Assembly (NCBI GenBank): GCA_016212825.1
Contig: JACRDS010000035.1
Location: 1 to 32,235 of the forward strand
Direction of reading: 5' to 3'
Length of the DNA: 32,235 bases
From: Elusimicrobiota bacterium
GTDB taxonomy: Bacteria > Elusimicrobiota > Elusimicrobia > UBA1565 > UBA9628
In this document: positions 6,943 through 30,183 of the stretch, one piece after another
Layout: the number at the start of each line of letters is the position of its first letter
How positions within the stretch are numbered: position 1 is the stretch's first letter
Position numbers and translations under genes: made by a program
The notes under the pieces: generated by a model
Told to the model about the DNA's origin: nothing
Database searches by the model: none
The model's input: the letters and a program-made list of their open reading frames with translations, nothing else

Positions 6943-7565
6943 TGCGCTATACCGGAGCCGTCTGCAAACTCTGCCGCCGCGAGCAGAACAAGCTCTTCCT
7001 CAAGGGCGACAAATGCCAGGTCAAGTGCACCCTGGACAAGCGGCCCATGCCGCCGGGGGCGGCCCGGCCCCAGCGGGGGAAGCCCTCCGCCTTCTCTGTC
7101 CGCCTGCGCGAGAAGCAGAAGCTGCGCCGTCTGGTGTCCATGGCCGAGAAGCCTTTCGAGCGGATGGTGACGCAAGCCTCGCAGAGCCCGGAGGCCTCCG
7201 GAGACCACCTCCTGCGCGCCCTGGAACTGCGCCTCGACAATGTGGTGCGGCGCATGGGCCTGGCCACCTCGCTCAAGCAGGCGCGCCAGCTGGTCCGCCA
7301 CGGCCACATCAAGGTGGGGGGCAAGCGCATCGGCATCCCGTCCTACGGCATCCAGGCCGGCGACGTCATCTCGCTGGAGCCCAAGTACCGGGGCAACGTG
7401 GGGATCAAGCTCAGCCTGGAGACGGCCAAGAGGCTCAACCAGAGGCCGAGCTACATGACGTTCGACGAGGCGGAGTTCGCCGCCAAGATCGTGCGCCTGC
7501 CGGAACGGGCCGAGATGTCGTTCCCGGTCAACGAGCAGCTGATCATCGAGTACTATTCCAAGTAG
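6942..7565 (+). CDS. rpsD: 30S ribosomal protein S4, zinc form
   Basis: The 207-residue product has an N-terminal zinc site (C8, C11, C25, C29) and the S4 RNA-binding domain around residues 95-160 with LDNVVRRMGLA, ARQLVRHGHIKVGGKR and PSYGIQAGDVI. It ends in the family MSFPVNEQLIIEYYSK block. S4 starts 30S assembly by binding the 5' domain of 16S rRNA and, in Escherichia coli, represses the alpha operon. The ATG at 6942 shares one base with the rpsK stop, and AGGAGG at 6931-6936 has a 5-base spacer. Together with S14, L36 and Adk the window uses the cysteine-bearing versions throughout. Certain. Confidence 0.97.
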   Translation: MRYTGAVCKLCRREQNKLFLKGDKCQVKCTLDKRPMPPGAARPQRGKPSAFSVRLREKQKLRRLVSMAEKPFERMVTQASQSPEASGDHLLRALELRLDNVVRRMGLATSLKQARQLVRHGHIKVGGKRIGIPSYGIQAGDVISLEPKYRGNVGIKLSLETAKRLNQRPSYMTFDEAEFAAKIVRLPERAEMSFPVNEQLIIEYYSK

Positions 7566-7588
7566 GGGAGCGAGGGAGATAGGGAGCC

Positions 7589-13295: not shown

Positions 13296-13323
13296 ACACC
13301 CTTTATCAAGAGAGGATTTCGAC

Positions 13324-15396
13324 ATGTCGAACGAAGAGACGGATGTGAAGCAGGATCCGATCACCCCGCCCCCTCCGGGAGGGGAGAACGCCCTCCCTGC
13401 GGAGGCGGCGCTTCCCAGCGCGCCGGCGCCCCAGGAGCCGCCGCAGGAGGACGCCCGGGACCAGCGCGAGGAGCAGTACCCCCGCGCGGACGCGGTCATC
13501 GCCCGCGACCCGGAGCCGGATTACGCCGCGTCCCCGGAGACCGTCGAAGACGAGGGCGAGGAGGGCGGCTTCGACGGCGTGGCGGAGGTGGGCGATGAGG
13601 GCCCGGAGACGGAGGATGAGCCCGAGGCCGAAGAGCCGCAGTCCCCTCCGCGAGCGGAGAACGGTAACGCTCCGGGGACGGCGCGTCCTGACGCGCCGCA
13701 GCAGCAACAGCAGCAGCGGCATGAGGGACGCGGCCGGCGGCGGGGCCGCGGCGGACGCGGCGGAGACCGCGGCCGGCAGGACCAAGGCGGCCGGCAGGAC
13801 CGCCAGCGCCAAGAACGGGGCCGGCAGGAGCACGGCCGACAGGACCGGCAGCGCCAGGATCGGGACCGGCAGGAGCACGACCGTCGGGGAGGCGAAGGGC
13901 ATCGCGGCCGCGAGCGCGGCGGTGAGCGCGAGTACCGCAGCGACCACCGCACTCCGGGCCCGGCCGTCAAGCGCGAGATCCTGGCCAACACCAACTTCGA
14001 GGAGACGCGCATCGCGATCCTGGAGGACGGCCGCATGGCCGAGCTCCTGTGGGAGCGCAAGAGCAGCCAGAACATCGTCGGCAACATCTACAAGGGCGTG
14101 GTCGAGAACGTGCTGCCCGGCATCTCCTCGGCCTTCGTGAACATCGGCTACGAGAAGAACGCCTATCTCTACATCTCGGATGTGCTCGGGGAGAAGGGCG
14201 CCGCCATCGACGCCACCCTCAAGAAGGGCCAGCACATCATGGTCCAGGTCGCCAAGGAGGCCATCAGCACCAAGGGCGCGAAGGTTACCATGGACATCTC
14301 GCTGCCCGGCCGCTATCTGGTCTTCACCCCCAACCAGACCTACGTGGGCATCTCCAAGCAGATCGGCGACGCCGCCGAGAGGGAGAGGCTCTCCGCCATC
14401 GTGGACCGCCTGGTGGCGGAGCACCTGGACGGCAAGGGCGTGGTGGTACGTACCGAGGCCGAGGGCGCCTCGGAGGCCGACCTGGAGCGCGAGGTCAAGT
14501 ATCTGCAGCAGACCTGGGCCCAGATCCAGAAGAAGTTCGCGGAGACGCCGCCGCCCTGCATGCTGCACAAGGACCTGGACCTGGCCCTGCAGGTGGCGCG
14601 CGACCTGCTCTCCGACAAGGTCTACGTCTACCTGCTCGACAACAAGGACCAGCACAAGAACGTGACGGAGTTCGTGGCGGCCATCTCTCCGGAGCTCCAG
14701 TCGAAGGTGAAGCTCTACGACGCAAAGACCCCCATGTTCAAGGCCTTCGACCTGGAGAGGGAGATCGAGGACATGCGCCGCACCAAGGTCCCCCTGCCCA
14801 ACGGGGGCTCGATCATCATCCAGGAGGCGGAGTCCCTCTGCGCCATCGACGTCAACACCGGCCGATTCACCGGCTCCAAATCCCAGGAGGAGACGGTCAC
14901 CCAGACCAACGTCGAGGCCGCGGCGGAGGTCGCGCACCAGCTGCGCCTGCGCAACATCGGCGGCATCATCGTGGTGGACTTCATCGACATGCGCAAAGCC
15001 TCCAACCGCCAGAAGGTGATGGAGGCTTTCGCCCACGCCTGCAAGGGCGACCGGGCCAAGATCCGCATCCTGCCCATCACCCGCCTGGGCCTGGTGGAAC
15101 TGACCCGCGAGCGCAAGCGCGAGTCCACGGTGAGTCTCATCACCGACGAATGCCCCCAGTGCAAAGGCTGCGGGCGGGTGCTCTCCGGAGAGACCCTGCG
15201 CATACGCATCCAGCGCGAGATCAAGCAGATGACCGGGGGGCGGCCGGGCGGCAGCGTGCGGCTTCTGCTGCATCCCGGCCTGGCGGAGCAGTTCCGCGGC
15301 CAGCAGGTCGCCATCGAGAAGAACGTGGCGCGCACCATCAAGATCCAGAGCGACCCGTCCTTGCCCTGGGAGGAGTACCGCATCGTCCTGGAATGA
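13324..15396 (+). CDS. rng: Ribonuclease E/G family endoribonuclease with disordered N-terminus
   Basis: The 690-residue product has its catalytic core at about residues 215-690: an S1-type RNA-binding region (GNIYKGVVENVLPGISSAFVNIG), the nuclease with D509 (AIDVNTG) and D552 (VVDFIDMRK), and a zinc-link CPQC at 610-613. These spacings (43 and 58 residues) match D303, D346 and C404 of Escherichia coli RNase E. The first 215 residues are not part of the family: an acidic half, a poly-Gln run, then an Arg/Gln/Gly/Asp-rich half with a 15-residue tandem repeat. There is no C-terminal scaffold, so the disordered tail is moved to the front. Start ATG 13324 follows AGAGAGG. Part of the cell-wall operon. 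Confidence 0.93.
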   Translation: MSNEETDVKQDPITPPPPGGENALPAEAALPSAPAPQEPPQEDARDQREEQYPRADAVIARDPEPDYAASPETVEDEGEEGGFDGVAEVGDEGPETEDEPEAEEPQSPPRAENGNAPGTARPDAPQQQQQQRHEGRGRRRGRGGRGGDRGRQDQGGRQDRQRQERGRQEHGRQDRQRQDRDRQEHDRRGGEGHRGRERGGEREYRSDHRTPGPAVKREILANTNFEETRIAILEDGRMAELLWERKSSQNIVGNIYKGVVENVLPGISSAFVNIGYEKNAYLYISDVLGEKGAAIDATLKKGQHIMVQVAKEAISTKGAKVTMDISLPGRYLVFTPNQTYVGISKQIGDAAERERLSAIVDRLVAEHLDGKGVVVRTEAEGASEADLEREVKYLQQTWAQIQKKFAETPPPCMLHKDLDLALQVARDLLSDKVYVYLLDNKDQHKNVTEFVAAISPELQSKVKLYDAKTPMFKAFDLEREIEDMRRTKVPLPNGGSIIIQEAESLCAIDVNTGRFTGSKSQEETVTQTNVEAAAEVAHQLRLRNIGGIIVVDFIDMRKASNRQKVMEAFAHACKGDRAKIRILPITRLGLVELTRERKRESTVSLITDECPQCKGCGRVLSGETLRIRIQREIKQMTGGRPGGSVRLLLHPGLAEQFRGQQVAIEKNVARTIKIQSDPSLPWEEYRIVLE
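13792..13881 (+). repeat. Two copies of a 45-base tandem repeat inside the RNase E/G gene
   Basis: The segments 13792-13836 and 13837-13881 are near-identical and encode residues 157-171 and 172-186. The unit reads RQDRQRQ-E/D-R-G/D-RQEH plus one residue. Copies differ by several silent and a few coding changes. It lies in the disordered Arg/Gln-rich leader, so it is a coding minisatellite and not an intergenic repeat. Confidence 0.75.
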
Positions 15397-18328: not shown

Positions 18329-19444
18329 ATGAACGAAGAGAATGCTGGCGGGCAGGGCGGCGGTCAACCGGGCGCGGGCTCGGGAGGCGGCCAGGGCGGC
18401 CATGGTCACGGCGGCGGCCAAGGCGGGCATGGCGGCCGGAACCGGCATTTCCGGTTCCGCAGACGCCGCGGCGGCGGAGGCGGCGGCGGGAGCCCGCAGC
18501 ACCAGCACCAGCAGCAACGCCGGCCCCAGCAGGGCGGCGGCGGGGGCGGCGGGCCCAGGCCTGTTCCCCAGCCGGTGCGCACCGCCGACGAGATCGCTTT
18601 CATGGAGAAGACGCCGGTCGACCCTTACCAGTGGATCAACCTGGAGAAGGGCTCGACCGACCCGTCCATGCGCGCCCTGGACCTGCTCTGCCCCATCGGC
18701 AAGGGCACACGGGGCCTGATCGTCTCGCCGCCCAAGGCGGGCAAGACGACCTTCCTCAAGCAGATCTCCAACGCGGTCCATGCCGTGGACCCGGCGGTCA
18801 AGCAGTTCTGCCTGCTCGTGGATGAGCGCCCGGAGGAGGTCACCGACTTCAAGAGGAGCGTCCCGGCGGAGGTCGCGGCCTCCTCCAGCGACCAGGCCTA
18901 CGAACGGCACCGCGAGGTGGCCGAGAACCTGATGCGCGCGGCCATCAGCGAGGCGGCCAAGGGCACGGACGTCCTGATCCTCCTCGACTCGCTCACCCGC
19001 CTGGCCCGCGTGCACAACCAGTTCGCCGTGGGCAACCGCACCATGTCGGGAGGCCTGGACTCGCGGGCCATGGAGATACCTCGGCGCTTCTTCGGCGCGG
19101 CGCGCAAGCTGGAGGAGGGGGGGTCCCTTACCATCCTGGCCTCCATCCTGGTGGACACGGGCTCCCGGATGGACGACATCATCTTCCAGGAGTTCAAGGG
19201 CACGGGCAACATGGAGCTCGTGCTCTTCCGTTCGGCGGCCGAGGCGCGCATCTTCCCGGCCTTGAAGGTGCGCGACACGGGCACGCGCAAGGAGGAGAAG
19301 CTCCTGCCCCCGGACATCCTGGAGGGGGTCTACAAGCTGCGCCGCCACCTGGCTCCACTGGGCGAGATGGAAGCGACCAAGGCGATGCACGAACTGCTCA
19401 TGACCTACAAGACCAACAAGGCCCTGCTGGCCTCGCTCAAGTGA
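18329..19444 (+). CDS. rho: Rho-type transcription termination ATPase lacking the OB-fold RNA-binding domain
   Basis: The 371-residue product contains the complete Rho motor from about residue 95: P-loop PPKAGKTT (134-141), catalytic DERPEE (165-170), Walker B LLDSLTRLAR (218-227), Q-loop region MSGGLD and R-loop GTGNMEL (291-297) and arginine finger R320 in GTRKEE. It is clearly an active-looking hexameric RNA-dependent ATPase. But Rho normally begins with about 125 residues made of a helical bundle and a cold-shock-like OB-fold that binds rut RNA; here residues 1-84 are only a Gly/Gln/Arg/His-rich low-complexity stretch. An in-frame TAG at 18299-18301 and no start codon between it and 18329 exclude a longer form. 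ridA overlaps its stop. A full rho may exist elsewhere. Confidence 0.9.
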   Translation: MNEENAGGQGGGQPGAGSGGGQGGHGHGGGQGGHGGRNRHFRFRRRRGGGGGGGSPQHQHQQQRRPQQGGGGGGGPRPVPQPVRTADEIAFMEKTPVDPYQWINLEKGSTDPSMRALDLLCPIGKGTRGLIVSPPKAGKTTFLKQISNAVHAVDPAVKQFCLLVDERPEEVTDFKRSVPAEVAASSSDQAYERHREVAENLMRAAISEAAKGTDVLILLDSLTRLARVHNQFAVGNRTMSGGLDSRAMEIPRRFFGAARKLEEGGSLTILASILVDTGSRMDDIIFQEFKGTGNMELVLFRSAAEARIFPALKVRDTGTRKEEKLLPPDILEGVYKLRRHLAPLGEMEATKAMHELLMTYKTNKALLASLK

Positions 19445-24523: not shown

Positions 24524-26803
24524 ATGCCCCCGCGCGCGGCCCTCGCGGCCGCAGCCGTGCTGATGGTCTTGTCGGCCGCGGCCGCGGATCCGCCGCAGGG
24601 TCCCTCACGGGTGCTGCCCTCCGTGGTCGACCGCAGCGCCGACAACCACGCCACCATCAGGGGCCTGCGCGTCATGGCCCAGAGCCTGCCCGACAGCTCC
24701 GCCAAGCAGCAGGTCCTCCCCCTCCTGACGCGCATCGACGAGGGGGCCGCGCGCCTGCCCCCGTCGAAGCGCGAGACCTTCGTCTCGGAGAGCCTGGGCG
24801 AGCTCACCATCCTGGCCGGACGGCTCTCCCCCGAGGCCGTGCCGAAGGAGGTCCTCAAGCAGGTCCAGAACGGCGCCGCCTACCTCAACAACCGCGCCAA
24901 CCGCTGGGAGGAGTCCGTCCGGCTTTCCGAGCAGGTGCTCGGCATCGACCCGCAGAACCGCGACGCCCTCCTCAACCGCGCCAACGCCGCCTACGGGCTC
25001 AAGAACTTCCAGAACTCCTACGACGACGCCGACCGCGCGGTCAAGCTCGACCCCAACGACCCGGACGGCTACACGGCCCGCGCCCTGGCGTCCTACGGAC
25101 TGGCCGAGTACTTGCAGGCCATGGAGGACGCGCGCCGGGCCCTGGCCATGAACCCCAACGACCGGACCGCCCACGCCCTCATGCGCCTGGCCGAGGGCCG
25201 CGTCCCGCCGACCACCGTGCACGACGTCAGGAGCCGCCTCGAGGTCGAGGTGCAGCGCGAGTACCACGGCATGGTGACCCAGCTCAACGAGGTCGAGTCG
25301 CGCCGCCAGGAGCCGGTCGCCTCCCCCTCGCCGCCCAACGTCAGCCGCCTCCTGCGCGGCGCCGCCGACCGCATCGCGCTCAAAGACTACTACGGCGCGG
25401 TGGCCGCCGCGGACAAGGCGCTGGCCGAGGACCCCAACAACGCCGCGGCCTACTACTACCGCGCCGCGGCCTACAACCTCATCGGGCAGTACGAGAACGC
25501 GGTGGCCAACGCCAGCCACGCCCTGAGCATCAACCCCACCGAGACCGCGGCGCGCGACGCCCGCTCCTTCGCCTACAACCACATGGGCCGCTTCAACGAC
25601 GCCCTGGCCGACGCCAACCACTCCCTCGAGCTCAACCCCCGCAACCCCTACGCATTCGCCAACCGGGGCTTCGCGCACGAGCGCATGGGGGACCTGGAGG
25701 CCATGCTGGCCGACCTCAAGAAGGCCTCGGAGCTCAACCCCCAGTTCGAGCCGGTCTACCATGACGCGGCCGCCGCCTACGGCGTGGAGATCAAGCCCCT
25801 GGCCCGACGCCCCGAGCCGCCCGCAGCCCCGGTCCTCACGCCGCGCCGCAAGCAGTTCTTCTCCATCCTGCTGAGCTCTCTGGCGGGGGGGCTCCTCATC
25901 GCCTTCGGGCTCCTGCACATCTTCGGCCCGCGCCTGGCGCGCAGGTCGCGCGCCCCGTCGGCCATCAACCAGTCCTACGACATCGGCAAGCCCCTGGGGC
26001 AGGGCGGCATGGGCGTCGTCTACGAGGCCGTGGACCGGGCCCTGGGCCGGAAGGTGGCCATCAAGATGCTCCTCGATGAGTTCCAGATCGACGCCGGGGC
26101 CAAGAAGCTCCTCCTCGACGAAGCGCGCACGGTTGCGGCCCTGCACCACCCCAACATCGTGGACATCCACTCCATCGTCGCGGACGACCGGGGGCTCTAC
26201 CTGGTCTTCGAGTTCCTCTCCGGCCGCACGGTGGACCAACTGGTGGCGGCGAAGGGGCGCCTCTCCCTGGAGGAGGCCCGGGCCCTGCTCAAGCCGGTCT
26301 GCGCGGCCCTAGACTTCGCGCACCGCCGCGGCGTGGTGCACCGGGACCTCAAGCCCTCCAACATCATGATGACGGAGCAGGGCATCGTCAAGGTGATGGA
26401 TTTCGGCATCTCCCGCCGCGTCAAGGACACCCGGCAGACGCTCTCCGGCAGGCGCCGCGGCTACGAAGTCACCCAGACCGTGGCCGGGACCCCCTACTAT
26501 ATGGCGCCCGAGCAGGAGGACGGCATCGTGCGGCCGGAGGCCGACATCTACTCCCTTGGGACCTGCCTCTACGAGATGACCACGGGGCGCCGCCCCTATC
26601 CGCCCCCGGCCAGCCGCACCCAGAAGACGGCCGCCGACTACATCAAGCCCTCGGCCCTGGAGCCTTCCCTGCCGCGCTCCTTCGACGTGCTCATCGACGG
26701 CGCCCTGCACCCGGACCCCGAGAGGCGCATCCGCACGGCCGGGGACTTCTGGGCCCTGCTGGAGGTGGTCCGGCCCAACGACGCGGGCATAGCCCCCTCC
26801 TGA
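24524..26803 (+). CDS. Ser/Thr protein kinase with extracytoplasmic TPR sensor
   Basis: The 759-residue product starts with a signal sequence (4-21) and TPR helices (about 115-215 and 275-420; at least six 34-residue units such as ANAAYGLKNFQNSYDDADRA). A membrane span at 444-467 is followed by RLARRSR and a complete Hanks-type kinase (485-750): GQGGMG (492-497), K514, E533, HRDLKPSN with D608, DFG at 626-628, APEQ, and D674. The positive residues after the span put the kinase inside and the TPRs outside. Hanks kinases usually have the catalytic domain first; here the order is reversed. It has its own promoter and no linked phosphatase gene. Activity very likely; ligand unknown. Confidence 0.92.
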   Translation: MPPRAALAAAAVLMVLSAAAADPPQGPSRVLPSVVDRSADNHATIRGLRVMAQSLPDSSAKQQVLPLLTRIDEGAARLPPSKRETFVSESLGELTILAGRLSPEAVPKEVLKQVQNGAAYLNNRANRWEESVRLSEQVLGIDPQNRDALLNRANAAYGLKNFQNSYDDADRAVKLDPNDPDGYTARALASYGLAEYLQAMEDARRALAMNPNDRTAHALMRLAEGRVPPTTVHDVRSRLEVEVQREYHGMVTQLNEVESRRQEPVASPSPPNVSRLLRGAADRIALKDYYGAVAAADKALAEDPNNAAAYYYRAAAYNLIGQYENAVANASHALSINPTETAARDARSFAYNHMGRFNDALADANHSLELNPRNPYAFANRGFAHERMGDLEAMLADLKKASELNPQFEPVYHDAAAAYGVEIKPLARRPEPPAAPVLTPRRKQFFSILLSSLAGGLLIAFGLLHIFGPRLARRSRAPSAINQSYDIGKPLGQGGMGVVYEAVDRALGRKVAIKMLLDEFQIDAGAKKLLLDEARTVAALHHPNIVDIHSIVADDRGLYLVFEFLSGRTVDQLVAAKGRLSLEEARALLKPVCAALDFAHRRGVVHRDLKPSNIMMTEQGIVKVMDFGISRRVKDTRQTLSGRRRGYEVTQTVAGTPYYMAPEQEDGIVRPEADIYSLGTCLYEMTTGRRPYPPPASRTQKTAADYIKPSALEPSLPRSFDVLIDGALHPDPERRIRTAGDFWALLEVVRPNDAGIAPS

Positions 26804-27622: not shown

Positions 27623-29539
27623 ATGAAAGGCACCATCACCGGCCGCATCATCGCCGAGCATCTGGTCGAGGGGACTCCCGGACCCGGCCGGGAGATCGGA
27701 CTGCGCATCGACCAGACCCTCACCCAGGATGCCACCGGCACGCTGGTCTACCTGGAGTTCGAGGCTCTGGGCCTGCCCCGCGTCAAGGTCGACCTGGCGG
27801 TCAGCTACATCGACCACAACATCATCCAGACCGACTCGCGCAATTTCGACGACCACCGCTTCCTGCAGTCCTGCGCCTCCAAGTTCGGCGTCATTCTCTC
27901 CCCGGCCGGCAACGGCGTCTCGCACCACGTGCACCGTCAGCGTTTCGGCGTCCCCGGCAAGACTTTGCTGGGGTCGGACAGCCACACCACGACCGGCGGC
28001 TGCCTGGGCATGCTCGCCATGGGCGCGGGCGGCGTGGAAGTGGCCCTGGCCATGGCCGGCCGGCCCTATCATCTCCGCACTCCTAAGCTCTGGGGCGTGC
28101 GCCTGACCGGCAAGCTCCAGCCCTTCGTCTCCGGAAAGGACCTCATCCTGGAACTGCTGCGGCGCCACACCTGCAAGGCCGGCATCGGCAAGGTCCTGGA
28201 GTTCTTCGGACCGGGGGTGGCCGTCCTGGACATGGCGGACCGCGGGGCGGTGTCCAACATGGCCGTGGACATGGGCTTCACCGCCGGGCTCTTCCCCTCC
28301 GACGCGGTGACGCGGGAGTACCTGGCGCGCAACGGCCGGGCGGGAGACTTCCGGGAGTTGCTCACCGGCCCCGACCCGAGCTATGACGAGGTCACGGAGC
28401 TCGACCTCGGCGCTATCGAGCCGATGGTGGCCTGCCCCAGCAACCCCGACAACGTCAAGCCGGCCCGCGAGCTCTCCTCCGTGCCGGTCCAGCAGGTGCT
28501 CATCGGCTCCTCGGCCAACGGCAGCTACAAGGATTTCATGGTCGCGGCCAAGATGTTGGAGGGGAAGGTCAAGCATACCTCCGTGGACTTGCAGATAAAC
28601 CCGGGCAGCCGCCAGACCCTGGAGAACGTCATGGCCATGGGCGGTCTCAAGGCTTTCGTGGAGGCGGGCGCGCGCATCTGCGAGGCAGGCTGTCTGGGCT
28701 GCATCGGCATGGGCCAGGCGCCGGGCACCGGGGTCAACTCCCTGCGCACCTTCCCGCGCAACTTCAAGGGCCGCAGCGGCACCAAGGACGACCAGGTCTA
28801 CCTGTGCTCGCCCGAGACCGCGGCCGCTTCGGCCTTGACCGGCCGCATCACGGACCCCCGCGCGCACGGGGCCTACCCCAAGATCGATTATCCCAAGACA
28901 TATGCCTTCAGACCCGGCTGGTTCATCCCGCCGGCGGCCGCGGGGACAGCGGTGGAGATCGTGCGCGGGCCCAACATCAAGCCTTTGCCCGAGATGCCGC
29001 CTTTGCCGGAGTCGCTGGAAGGAGAGGTGCTCCTCAAAGTCGGCGACAACATCAGCACGGACATCATCATGCCCGCGGGCGCGAAGGTCCTTCCCTTGCG
29101 CAGCAACATCCCGGCCATCAGCGAGTTCGTCTTCGCCCAGGTCGAGGAAGGCTTCTCCAAGCGCGCCCTGGCCGGGGGCGGGGGCTTTATCGTGGGCGGG
29201 GAGAACTACGGGCAGGGCTCCTCGCGCGAGCACGCCGCCCTGGCGCCGCGCTATCTGGGCGTCAAGGCCAAGCTGGCCAAGAGCTTCGCGCGCATCCATC
29301 ACGCCAACCTCATCAACTTCGGCATCGTGCCCCTGACCTTCGCCGACCCGGCGGACTACGACCGCGTCGCCGCGGGCCAGGCCCTCGAGATCCCCGGCAT
29401 CCGCGCGGCCCTGCAGAAAGGGGAGAAACAGGTCGAGGTCCAGGCGGGGACTCTGCGCATCAAAGCCCGGCTCGAGGTCACGTCCCGCGAGCGCGACATC
29501 CTGCTCGCCGGCGGCGCGCTCAACCTCGCCAAGGCATGA
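27623..29539 (+). CDS. acn: Aconitate hydratase, single-chain Aquifex type
   Basis: The 638-residue product belongs to the aconitase superfamily and fits the shorter Aquifex-type class in length. The catalytic domain has VSYIDHN-like DHN (64-66), SDSHTTTGG (118-126), CPSNPDNV (271-278) and the CxxC C357/C360 in EAGCLGCIGMG. The swivel domain follows with GDNISTDIIMPAG and the active-site GSSREHAAL (532-540). It interconverts citrate and isocitrate in the TCA cycle. The usual third iron-sulfur ligand, the Cys of GSCTN, is S297 (GSSANG); an extra C353 lies four residues before C357. A homoaconitase or isopropylmalate-type substrate is possible but the chain length argues for aconitase. gph overlaps the stop. 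Confidence 0.85.
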   Translation: MKGTITGRIIAEHLVEGTPGPGREIGLRIDQTLTQDATGTLVYLEFEALGLPRVKVDLAVSYIDHNIIQTDSRNFDDHRFLQSCASKFGVILSPAGNGVSHHVHRQRFGVPGKTLLGSDSHTTTGGCLGMLAMGAGGVEVALAMAGRPYHLRTPKLWGVRLTGKLQPFVSGKDLILELLRRHTCKAGIGKVLEFFGPGVAVLDMADRGAVSNMAVDMGFTAGLFPSDAVTREYLARNGRAGDFRELLTGPDPSYDEVTELDLGAIEPMVACPSNPDNVKPARELSSVPVQQVLIGSSANGSYKDFMVAAKMLEGKVKHTSVDLQINPGSRQTLENVMAMGGLKAFVEAGARICEAGCLGCIGMGQAPGTGVNSLRTFPRNFKGRSGTKDDQVYLCSPETAAASALTGRITDPRAHGAYPKIDYPKTYAFRPGWFIPPAAAGTAVEIVRGPNIKPLPEMPPLPESLEGEVLLKVGDNISTDIIMPAGAKVLPLRSNIPAISEFVFAQVEEGFSKRALAGGGGFIVGGENYGQGSSREHAALAPRYLGVKAKLAKSFARIHHANLINFGIVPLTFADPADYDRVAAGQALEIPGIRAALQKGEKQVEVQAGTLRIKARLEVTSRERDILLAGGALNLAKA

Positions 29540-30183
29540 TGAAAGCAGTCCTCTTCGACCTGGACGGGACCCTGCTCGACACGCTGGTGGACATCGCGAG
29601 CTGCGTCAACCTCATCCGGGCGGAGCTAGACCTGCCGCCCCATCCCAAGGACGCCTACAAGCACTTCGTGGGCGACGGCCTCAGGGAGCTCCTGGTGCGG
29701 GCCTTCCCGGCCCGGGTCCTGCGCGGCCCGGGGCTGCGGGCCCGGGCGCGGCGTTTCGAGGAGCTCTATGAGGAGCACGCCATGGACGAGACGCGTCCGT
29801 ATCCGGGCGTGGCCCGGATGCTCGACGGCGTGGTCCGGCGGGGCCTGCCCATGGCCGTGGTCTCCAACAAGCCCCAGCGCTTCACCGAGGCCTGCGTGGA
29901 CAAGCTCCTGCCGCGCTGGCGCTTCGCCGTGGTGCGCGGGGAGCGGCCCCAGGTGCCGCTCAAGCCGGACCCGACCGCGCCCCTGGCCGCGGCCCGGGCC
30001 ATGAAGACCGCGCCCCGCGACATGCTCTACCTGGGCGACACCAGCGTGGACATGAGGGCCGCGCGCAACGCGGGGATGTTCGCGGTGGGGGCCTTGTGGG
30101 GCTTCCGGGGCGAGGCGGAACTCCGCGCCAGCGGGGCCCAGGCTCTCATCCGCCGGCCCGGCGAGCTGCTGGCGCGGCTATAA
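29536..30183 (+). CDS. gph: HAD phosphatase, phosphoglycolate-phosphatase-like
   Basis: The 215-residue product has the HAD motifs: FDLDGTLLDT with D8 and D10 (nucleophile and acid), VVSNKP for motif II, LKPDP with the motif III lysine, and LGDTSVDMRAARNAGM as motif IV. The cap is the helical C1 type. Phosphoglycolate phosphatase clears 2-phosphoglycolate from DNA repair and oxidation, but related enzymes use other phosphates. Two consecutive ATGs (29536 and 29539) are possible; the first overlaps the aconitase stop by four bases. It meets the minus-strand SGNH gene tail to tail with a 6-base overlap. Family certain, substrate not. Confidence 0.88.
   Translation: MMKAVLFDLDGTLLDTLVDIASCVNLIRAELDLPPHPKDAYKHFVGDGLRELLVRAFPARVLRGPGLRARARRFEELYEEHAMDETRPYPGVARMLDGVVRRGLPMAVVSNKPQRFTEACVDKLLPRWRFAVVRGERPQVPLKPDPTAPLAAARAMKTAPRDMLYLGDTSVDMRAARNAGMFAVGALWGFRGEAELRASGAQALIRRPGELLARL

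Follow-up and report, generated by a model that had tools for sequence, protein, structure and literature searches.

A disordered N-terminal leader precedes an RNase G-length core in the RNase E/G of an Elusimicrobiota order

Noncatalytic extensions of RNase E have been described at either end of the catalytic core. In gamma-proteobacterial RNase E, according to the portion of PMC4435900 drawn on here, the tail is ANR-rich close to the core and AEPV-rich distally, with tandem repeats serving as a source of short motifs. In Caulobacter crescentus RNase E, Arg-rich charge blocks stimulate RNA-driven phase separation into BR-bodies (PMC10412687, consulted in part). Streptomyces RNase ES, a protein of 1340 aa, has a central core extended at both ends, and its flanks contact PNPase; excerpts of PMC10126417 argue that these extensions serve the same function as the C-terminal scaffold of E. 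coli, and also record a later failure to see E. coli PNPase binding for RNase ES. For the Elusimicrobia, a 2011 survey listed an RNase E/G of 488 aa with no predicted degradosome-like or scaffold potential (PMC3071783, as given in its Table 2). Our literature search on Elusimicrobia and RNase E returned nothing besides that survey.

The locus studied here lies in a window of 32,235 nucleotides (contig JACRDS010000035.1 of assembly GCA_016212825.1), the whole stretch of DNA that was analysed. An ORF on the forward strand at 13324–15396 encodes a protein of 690 aa beginning MSNEETDVKQD, and is the sole RNase E/G match in its genome (3.56 Mb, 186 contigs, 85.7% complete). A Shine-Dalgarno-like gagagga (13310–13316, +) ends 7 bases 5′ of the ATG at 13324. 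By Pfam, rpoA, mreB, mreC, mreD and a PBP2-type gene lie upstream and an amidase downstream; elsewhere in the window, 24524–26803 (+) encodes TPR repeats with a C-terminal protein kinase domain. The product matches Pfam RNase_E_G (PF10150) over residues 326–597 with 322.1 bits (cut-off 25.5) and NCBIfam RNaseEG (TIGR00757) over residues 227–631 with 448.3 bits (cut-off 325.95). A domain score above the curated cut-off thus places the predicted product in the RNase E/G family. The RNase G equivalog model NF008689 covers residues 217–689 at 397.9 bits, under its cut-off of 594.

The catalytic core (13969–15396, +) is of RNase G-like length. In alignment, D509, N511 and D552 correspond to D303, N305 and D346 of E. 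coli RNase E with identical D-N-D spacing, and the 5′ sensor residues R376/T377 (E. coli R169/T170) and the Zn-link cysteines C610/C613 likewise match the E. coli chain; the E. coli numbering follows a table in the consulted part of PMC10126417. The catalytic, 5′ sensor and Zn-link residues are invariant across 56 homologues. The closest named records to the core are Elusimicrobia MAGs, the first at 93% core identity, in a list from which own-genome records were possibly excluded. An earlier note on this DNA had stated that the core ends the protein, that its active-site spacing equals that of E. coli RNase E and that the enzyme should work. The first two statements hold: the core runs to residue 689 of 690, with no C-terminal noncatalytic scaffold of the E. 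coli type, and the spacing is the same. With the core intact and its key residues invariant, the enzyme should also be active, as predicted from its sequence.

Upstream of this core, residues 1–215 (13324–13968, +) form a leader that is disordered by prediction. In an AlphaFold model built on 56 aligned homologues, pLDDT over residues 1–210 is mostly below 50, with ten-residue means ranging from 34 to 47, and the chain is ordered from its first core strand, at residue 217. The boundary at residue 215 (nucleotide 13968), and with it the 215-residue disordered leader proposed in the earlier note, is correct because the first strand follows at once and confidence before it is low. The leader contains 7% hydrophobic residues against 34% in the core, so few that membrane anchoring of the leader is unlikely.

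The leader evolves as translated protein. Across 10 congeneric pairs its substitutions fall mostly at third positions, and its dN/dS is 0.11–0.41 against 0.02–0.15 for the core, exceeding that of the core in 10/10 pairs; the leader ratios depend on low-complexity alignments, and the lowest-ratio pair is near synonymous saturation. The alternative that the leader is untranslated and the true start lies near the core, which the earlier note had named as a refuting outcome, draws its sole support from leaderless relatives that start at the core. Codons 89–238 hold no ATG, GTG or TTG, so a start near residue 215 cannot occur with the usual start codons. Together with the third-position bias and the Shine-Dalgarno-like site before the ATG at 13324, this leaves that alternative with a negligible chance of being right.

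The leader is a property of the order. RNase E/G is present in 51/56 order genomes and in all 19 genera; the five genomes without a match are G024, G043, G061, G063 and G066, of which four have a completeness rating of 90% or more. A search for homologues sharing the leader, as the earlier note had advised, covered all 51 loci with the enzyme and found leader-like sequence immediately before the core in 50; in the remaining genome (G028) the contig ends within the core. For 45 leaders a start was assigned by choice among candidates, the other five being cut by a contig end (four) or containing unread bases (one). Assigned leaders measure about 85–319 aa, with a median of 162 (n = 45; figures include two core residues).

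Across the phylum, RNase E/G occurs in 307/340 genomes. Stop-to-stop frame lengths were listed for 233 genomes outside the order; six frames shorter than 470 aa, possibly cut, were left unjudged, and no comparable leader was seen in the 227 genomes with readable frames. In 223 of these the frame is 472–551 aa, too short for a leader of at least 85 aa, and the other four were read individually. Long frames outside the order (G051, G183, G212 and G229, each >560 aa, and G219 at 551 aa) were rejected as leader-bearing, since each has an ATG at the core or only a few codons away from it and what lies further upstream was judged to be frame overhang; for G183 a script found no Shine-Dalgarno-like site. 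In a core tree of 57 sequences (43 with leader, 14 without), rooted at midpoint only, the leader-bearing rows form one side of one branch with support 99/97, recovered in 99% of 200 bootstrap trees. The leader thus needs one change on this tree, most probably a single gain in the ancestor of the order; this is the simplest reading because the rest of the phylum is leaderless.

The leader of the source protein is divided by charge. Net charge is negative in all six 20-residue blocks of residues 1–120 (13324–13683, +), an acidic Ala/Pro/Glu-rich part with the conserved MSNEE start, and positive in every block of residues 121–200, in agreement with the acidic-then-Arg/Gln/Gly-rich order described in the earlier note. 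Averaged over the 45 leaders, the distal half contains 49% A+E+P+V and 6% R, and the proximal half 26% and 23%, respectively. Net charge is negative in the distal half of 40/45 leaders and positive in the proximal half of 44/45; both hold in 39/45, including the source leader, and the layout is absent in six. By calculated charge, the disordered leader has opposite charge blocks, as in BR-body-forming RNase E.

Conserved elements are embedded in this layout. They were sought by a motif scan with one leader per genus, scored against 60 shuffles within 30-residue blocks, with many windows tested. In family f1 the best-conserved part of the leader is an Arg/Gly block, EGRGRRRGRGGRGG (residues 134–147; 13723–13764, +), with z 8.7, a score reached in 0/60 shuffles; the MSNEE start ranks next (z 5.6), and both persist across f1 genera. 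The conservation of the block fits a putative RNA-binding function.

These observations lead us to a reading to which we assign a probability of roughly 0.6: an RNase G-type core acquired, once, a translated disordered N-terminal extension whose Arg/Gly block holds RNA and whose charges cluster the enzyme into decay assemblies. By binding RNA, the Arg/Gly block near the core would concentrate substrate locally. Attraction between the acidic distal part and the Arg-rich part, and of both for partner proteins, would let the enzyme gather into decay assemblies. The N-terminal leader would in this way do the job of the C-terminal disordered tail in E. coli or Caulobacter. We infer RNA binding and clustering because the plan of the gamma-proteobacterial tail recurs here in reverse and because Arg-rich charge blocks condense in Caulobacter. 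Against the RNA-holding, clustering leader stand the leaderless class relatives, which manage without one, the six of 45 leaders in which the charge layout fails and the five order genomes that gave no match to the enzyme. Leader length also varies almost fourfold and much of the sequence is unconserved, which makes a precise scaffold unlikely, and partners, if any, are not fixed, since f2/f3 conserve a motif other than that of f1. The observation of a leader in the earlier note is confirmed, and its suggestion that the leader may hold partners or RNA is plausible as an inference.

Searches for other RNA-decay enzymes favour the same reading. Neither RNase Y (N-terminal model PF12072) nor RNase J (TIGR00649) exceeded its cut-off in any of 57 genomes, with weaker matches in 3 and 19 genomes, respectively; RNase E/G is therefore the only one of these three decay enzyme types detected. 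PNPase scored over cut-off in 52/57 genomes. Leader-like features were looked for in ORFs of the window, in PNPase and in two of the nine DEAD-family matches. The PNPase of the source genome (L157, on G000:C174) has an Arg/Gly-rich C-terminal tail, PPRRDGPGGGRPRHGGGGRGRR, and L160 and L161, the best-scoring two of the nine DEAD-family matches in that genome, have similar Arg-rich C-terminal tails of RF[RK]FRRR type.

The leader might instead be mainly a sequence-specific scaffold, with short motifs docking PNPase, a DEAD-box helicase or the Rho paralogue described below, and with RNA binding secondary. Two motifs that exceed local shuffles speak for such docking. EQYPRADAVIARDP (YPRAD; residues 50–63, 13471–13512, +) reaches z 3.2 in f1 and 2.8 for the corresponding stretch in g9, weaker than the Arg/Gly block, and LEEMDMGEALAQHE (DMxEALAxxE) reaches z 12.1 against six f2/f3 leaders with no enrichment against f1. 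The Arg-rich C-terminal tails of the source genome's PNPase and of the two best of nine DEAD-family matches point the same way. The motifs are lineage-specific, however. YPRAD is clear mainly in genera g1 and g9, is missing even there from some members (G006, G027, G029) and is absent from the short leaders of g3, g6 and g10; DMxEALAxxE is visible in 7/10 aligned f2/f3 leaders (L039, L041, L037, L022, L052, L044 and L049) and invisible in the other three. A regular-expression search for DMxEALAxxE in ribosomal S1 or PNPase, made on the longest frames of eight regions of which only four (L151, L155, L156 and L157) were the intended proteins, gave no match. We hold the docking proposal to be rather doubtful, part of f1 (YPRAD) and most of f2/f3 (DMxEALAxxE) being the lineages to which it would apply.

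Could the leader be a tolerated low-complexity expansion, produced by repeat slippage in GC-rich DNA at a structurally free N-terminus and of little function? The top-scoring tandem array of the window does lie in the leader (13764–13883, +; period 45 bases, 2.6 copies), where it codes for a variable RQ/RG/RD tract. Where repeats slip in GC-rich DNA, stretches rich in Arg, Gly, Ala and Pro form readily, which counts against the RNA-holding, clustering leader, and the length range and a dN/dS above that of the core in every pair would also suit slippage. Nevertheless, dN/dS of the leader stays far under 1, f1 genera keep both the Arg/Gly block and the MSNEE start, and the leader is found in 50/51 enzyme-bearing genomes and its charge layout in most assigned leaders. 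Slippage with little function is accordingly an improbable account.

Direct regulation of the core is less probable still. On this reading the leader would, for example, bend its acidic part onto the 5′ sensor or active site, where it would mimic RNA from within the protein. In favour are the long acidic stretch ahead of an RNA enzyme and the connection of the leader to the first core strand. Against it, the AlphaFold model shows hardly any secondary structure in the leader, at low confidence, although a fuzzy contact would be invisible to it. We see little likelihood in such fold-back and prefer the leader as an RNA-holding, clustering element.

The composition of the leader recurs in one neighbouring gene. 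Among 29 chosen window ORFs, the R+G+Q+H fraction of a 60-residue stretch exceeds 0.7 only in RNase E/G (0.83) and a Rho-like gene (0.87), which is more than chance would give; 28804–30183 (0.68) and 7013–7582 (0.60) follow, and both resemble frame overhangs. The Rho-like gene (18329–19444, +) is a syntenic neighbour encoding, by Rho model and structure alignments, the ATPase part only of a Rho paralogue. It aligns to TIGR00767 at positions 127–414 (332 bits, cut-off 509), to NF006886 from position 125 of 413 (350.9 bits, cut-off 315) and to the Rho2 short form NF041509 from position 71 (279.8 bits, cut-off 628); all these matches begin past the RNA-binding part, and NF006886 would name the protein Rho because its cut-off is passed. 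It also aligns to residues 141–425 of 428 of the solved Rho chain 8hsj_A, which takes in the Rho ATPase part with its P-loop, Q-loop and R-loop. Pfam detected only PF00006 in the paralogue, neither Rho_N nor Rho_RNA_bind, both of which are present in two canonical Rho proteins of relatives. The canonical Rho of the source genome appears as two fragments at contig ends.

The paralogue begins with a Gly/Gln/His/Arg-rich low-complexity leader of 84 aa (18329–18580, +); residues 1–77 have low pLDDT, and the rest is modelled with moderate confidence only. Its stretch RHFRFRRRR resembles the tails of L160 and L161. Within the 57 relatives searched, matches at 57–92% identity occur in 44/45 other order genomes (all but G040; in pieces only in G018 and G036). 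RNase E/G and the paralogue share a contig in 32/42 order genomes, with match starts 2.7–6.5 kb apart, and lie on separate contigs in 10, counting genomes with both genes located, including the source genome and excluding G018. Paralogue leaders span 24–142 aa (median 75; 43 with assigned start). In three class relatives outside the order, a version of the paralogue begins with a short basic segment: G047 and G049 carry it on another contig than RNase E/G, and G050 yielded no RNase E/G match. Concerted evolution of the two leaders was considered and found no support, with no significant correlation across 18 genera (length p 0.088, His p 0.063, Arg p 0.28). Our literature search for a Rho form without RNA-binding domains found nothing on point.

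The leader of the paralogue would stand where the whole folded RNA-binding part of Rho should be. Joint assembly is plausible because both leaders are Arg/Gly-rich, the genes lie near each other and the PNPase and DEAD-family tails are Arg-rich. We tentatively raise, as our boldest and a rather unlikely possibility, that RNase E/G and the paralogue form a two-gene decay-termination module meeting on RNA through their leaders, with the Rho ring loaded by a disordered arm rather than by the primary site. A Rho paralogue without RNA-binding domains but with a leader raises the chance of such a linked complex; if true, this would be an RNase E–Rho degradosome built from N-terminal disordered leaders. 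The linked Rho paralogue would be the part most surprising to a specialist.

More broadly, the phylum previously recorded with a 488-aa enzyme and no scaffold potential (Table 2 of PMC3071783) contains an order in which, these data suggest, a disordered RNase E part has arisen at the other end of the core with an equal internal layout. One class holds both leaderless and leader-bearing relatives, and neither RNase Y nor RNase J scored over cut-off in the 57 genomes searched; the group might therefore offer a natural experiment on the contribution of the disordered part of RNase E.

Compared with the consulted descriptions of known systems, the leader most resembles the gamma-proteobacterial tail in plan. 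Both are disordered and bipartite, Arg-rich near the core and AEPV-rich distally, with repeats and short conserved motifs, but here the plan sits at the opposite end of the protein and is reversed end for end; with hydrophobic residues at about 7% of the leaders, an amphipathic membrane helix as in the E. coli tail is improbable here. Caulobacter RNase E shares an Arg-rich disordered region of opposite charge blocks, which in the excerpted account is C-terminal with condensation seen, whereas the present one is N-terminal. The earlier note had treated the order of scaffold and core as reversed; the leader does precede the core, but this arrangement has precedents in mycobacterial RNase E and Streptomyces RNase ES. 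In the mycobacterial profile (RnaseEMycob, NF052588) the core lies at positions 339–767 of 945, so that a long N-terminal extension is present there too, while about 180 profile positions follow the core, where our protein has no tail. The match to this profile covers residues 228–640, the core only, at 301.2 bits (cut-off 1400), and homology of the leader to mycobacterial N-terminal regions was rejected, with no alignment beyond the core. RNase ES likewise has a long N-terminal extension, although by the cited excerpts its core is central and ours is terminal. An N-terminal noncatalytic extension of actinobacterial type is thus present (residues 1–215) and a second extension after the core is absent. 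RNase G (NF008689) has a like core over model positions 3–488 of 489, in a model without a leader. N-terminal extensions are already known from Actinobacteria; what differs here is that the core ends the protein and has the length of RNase G.
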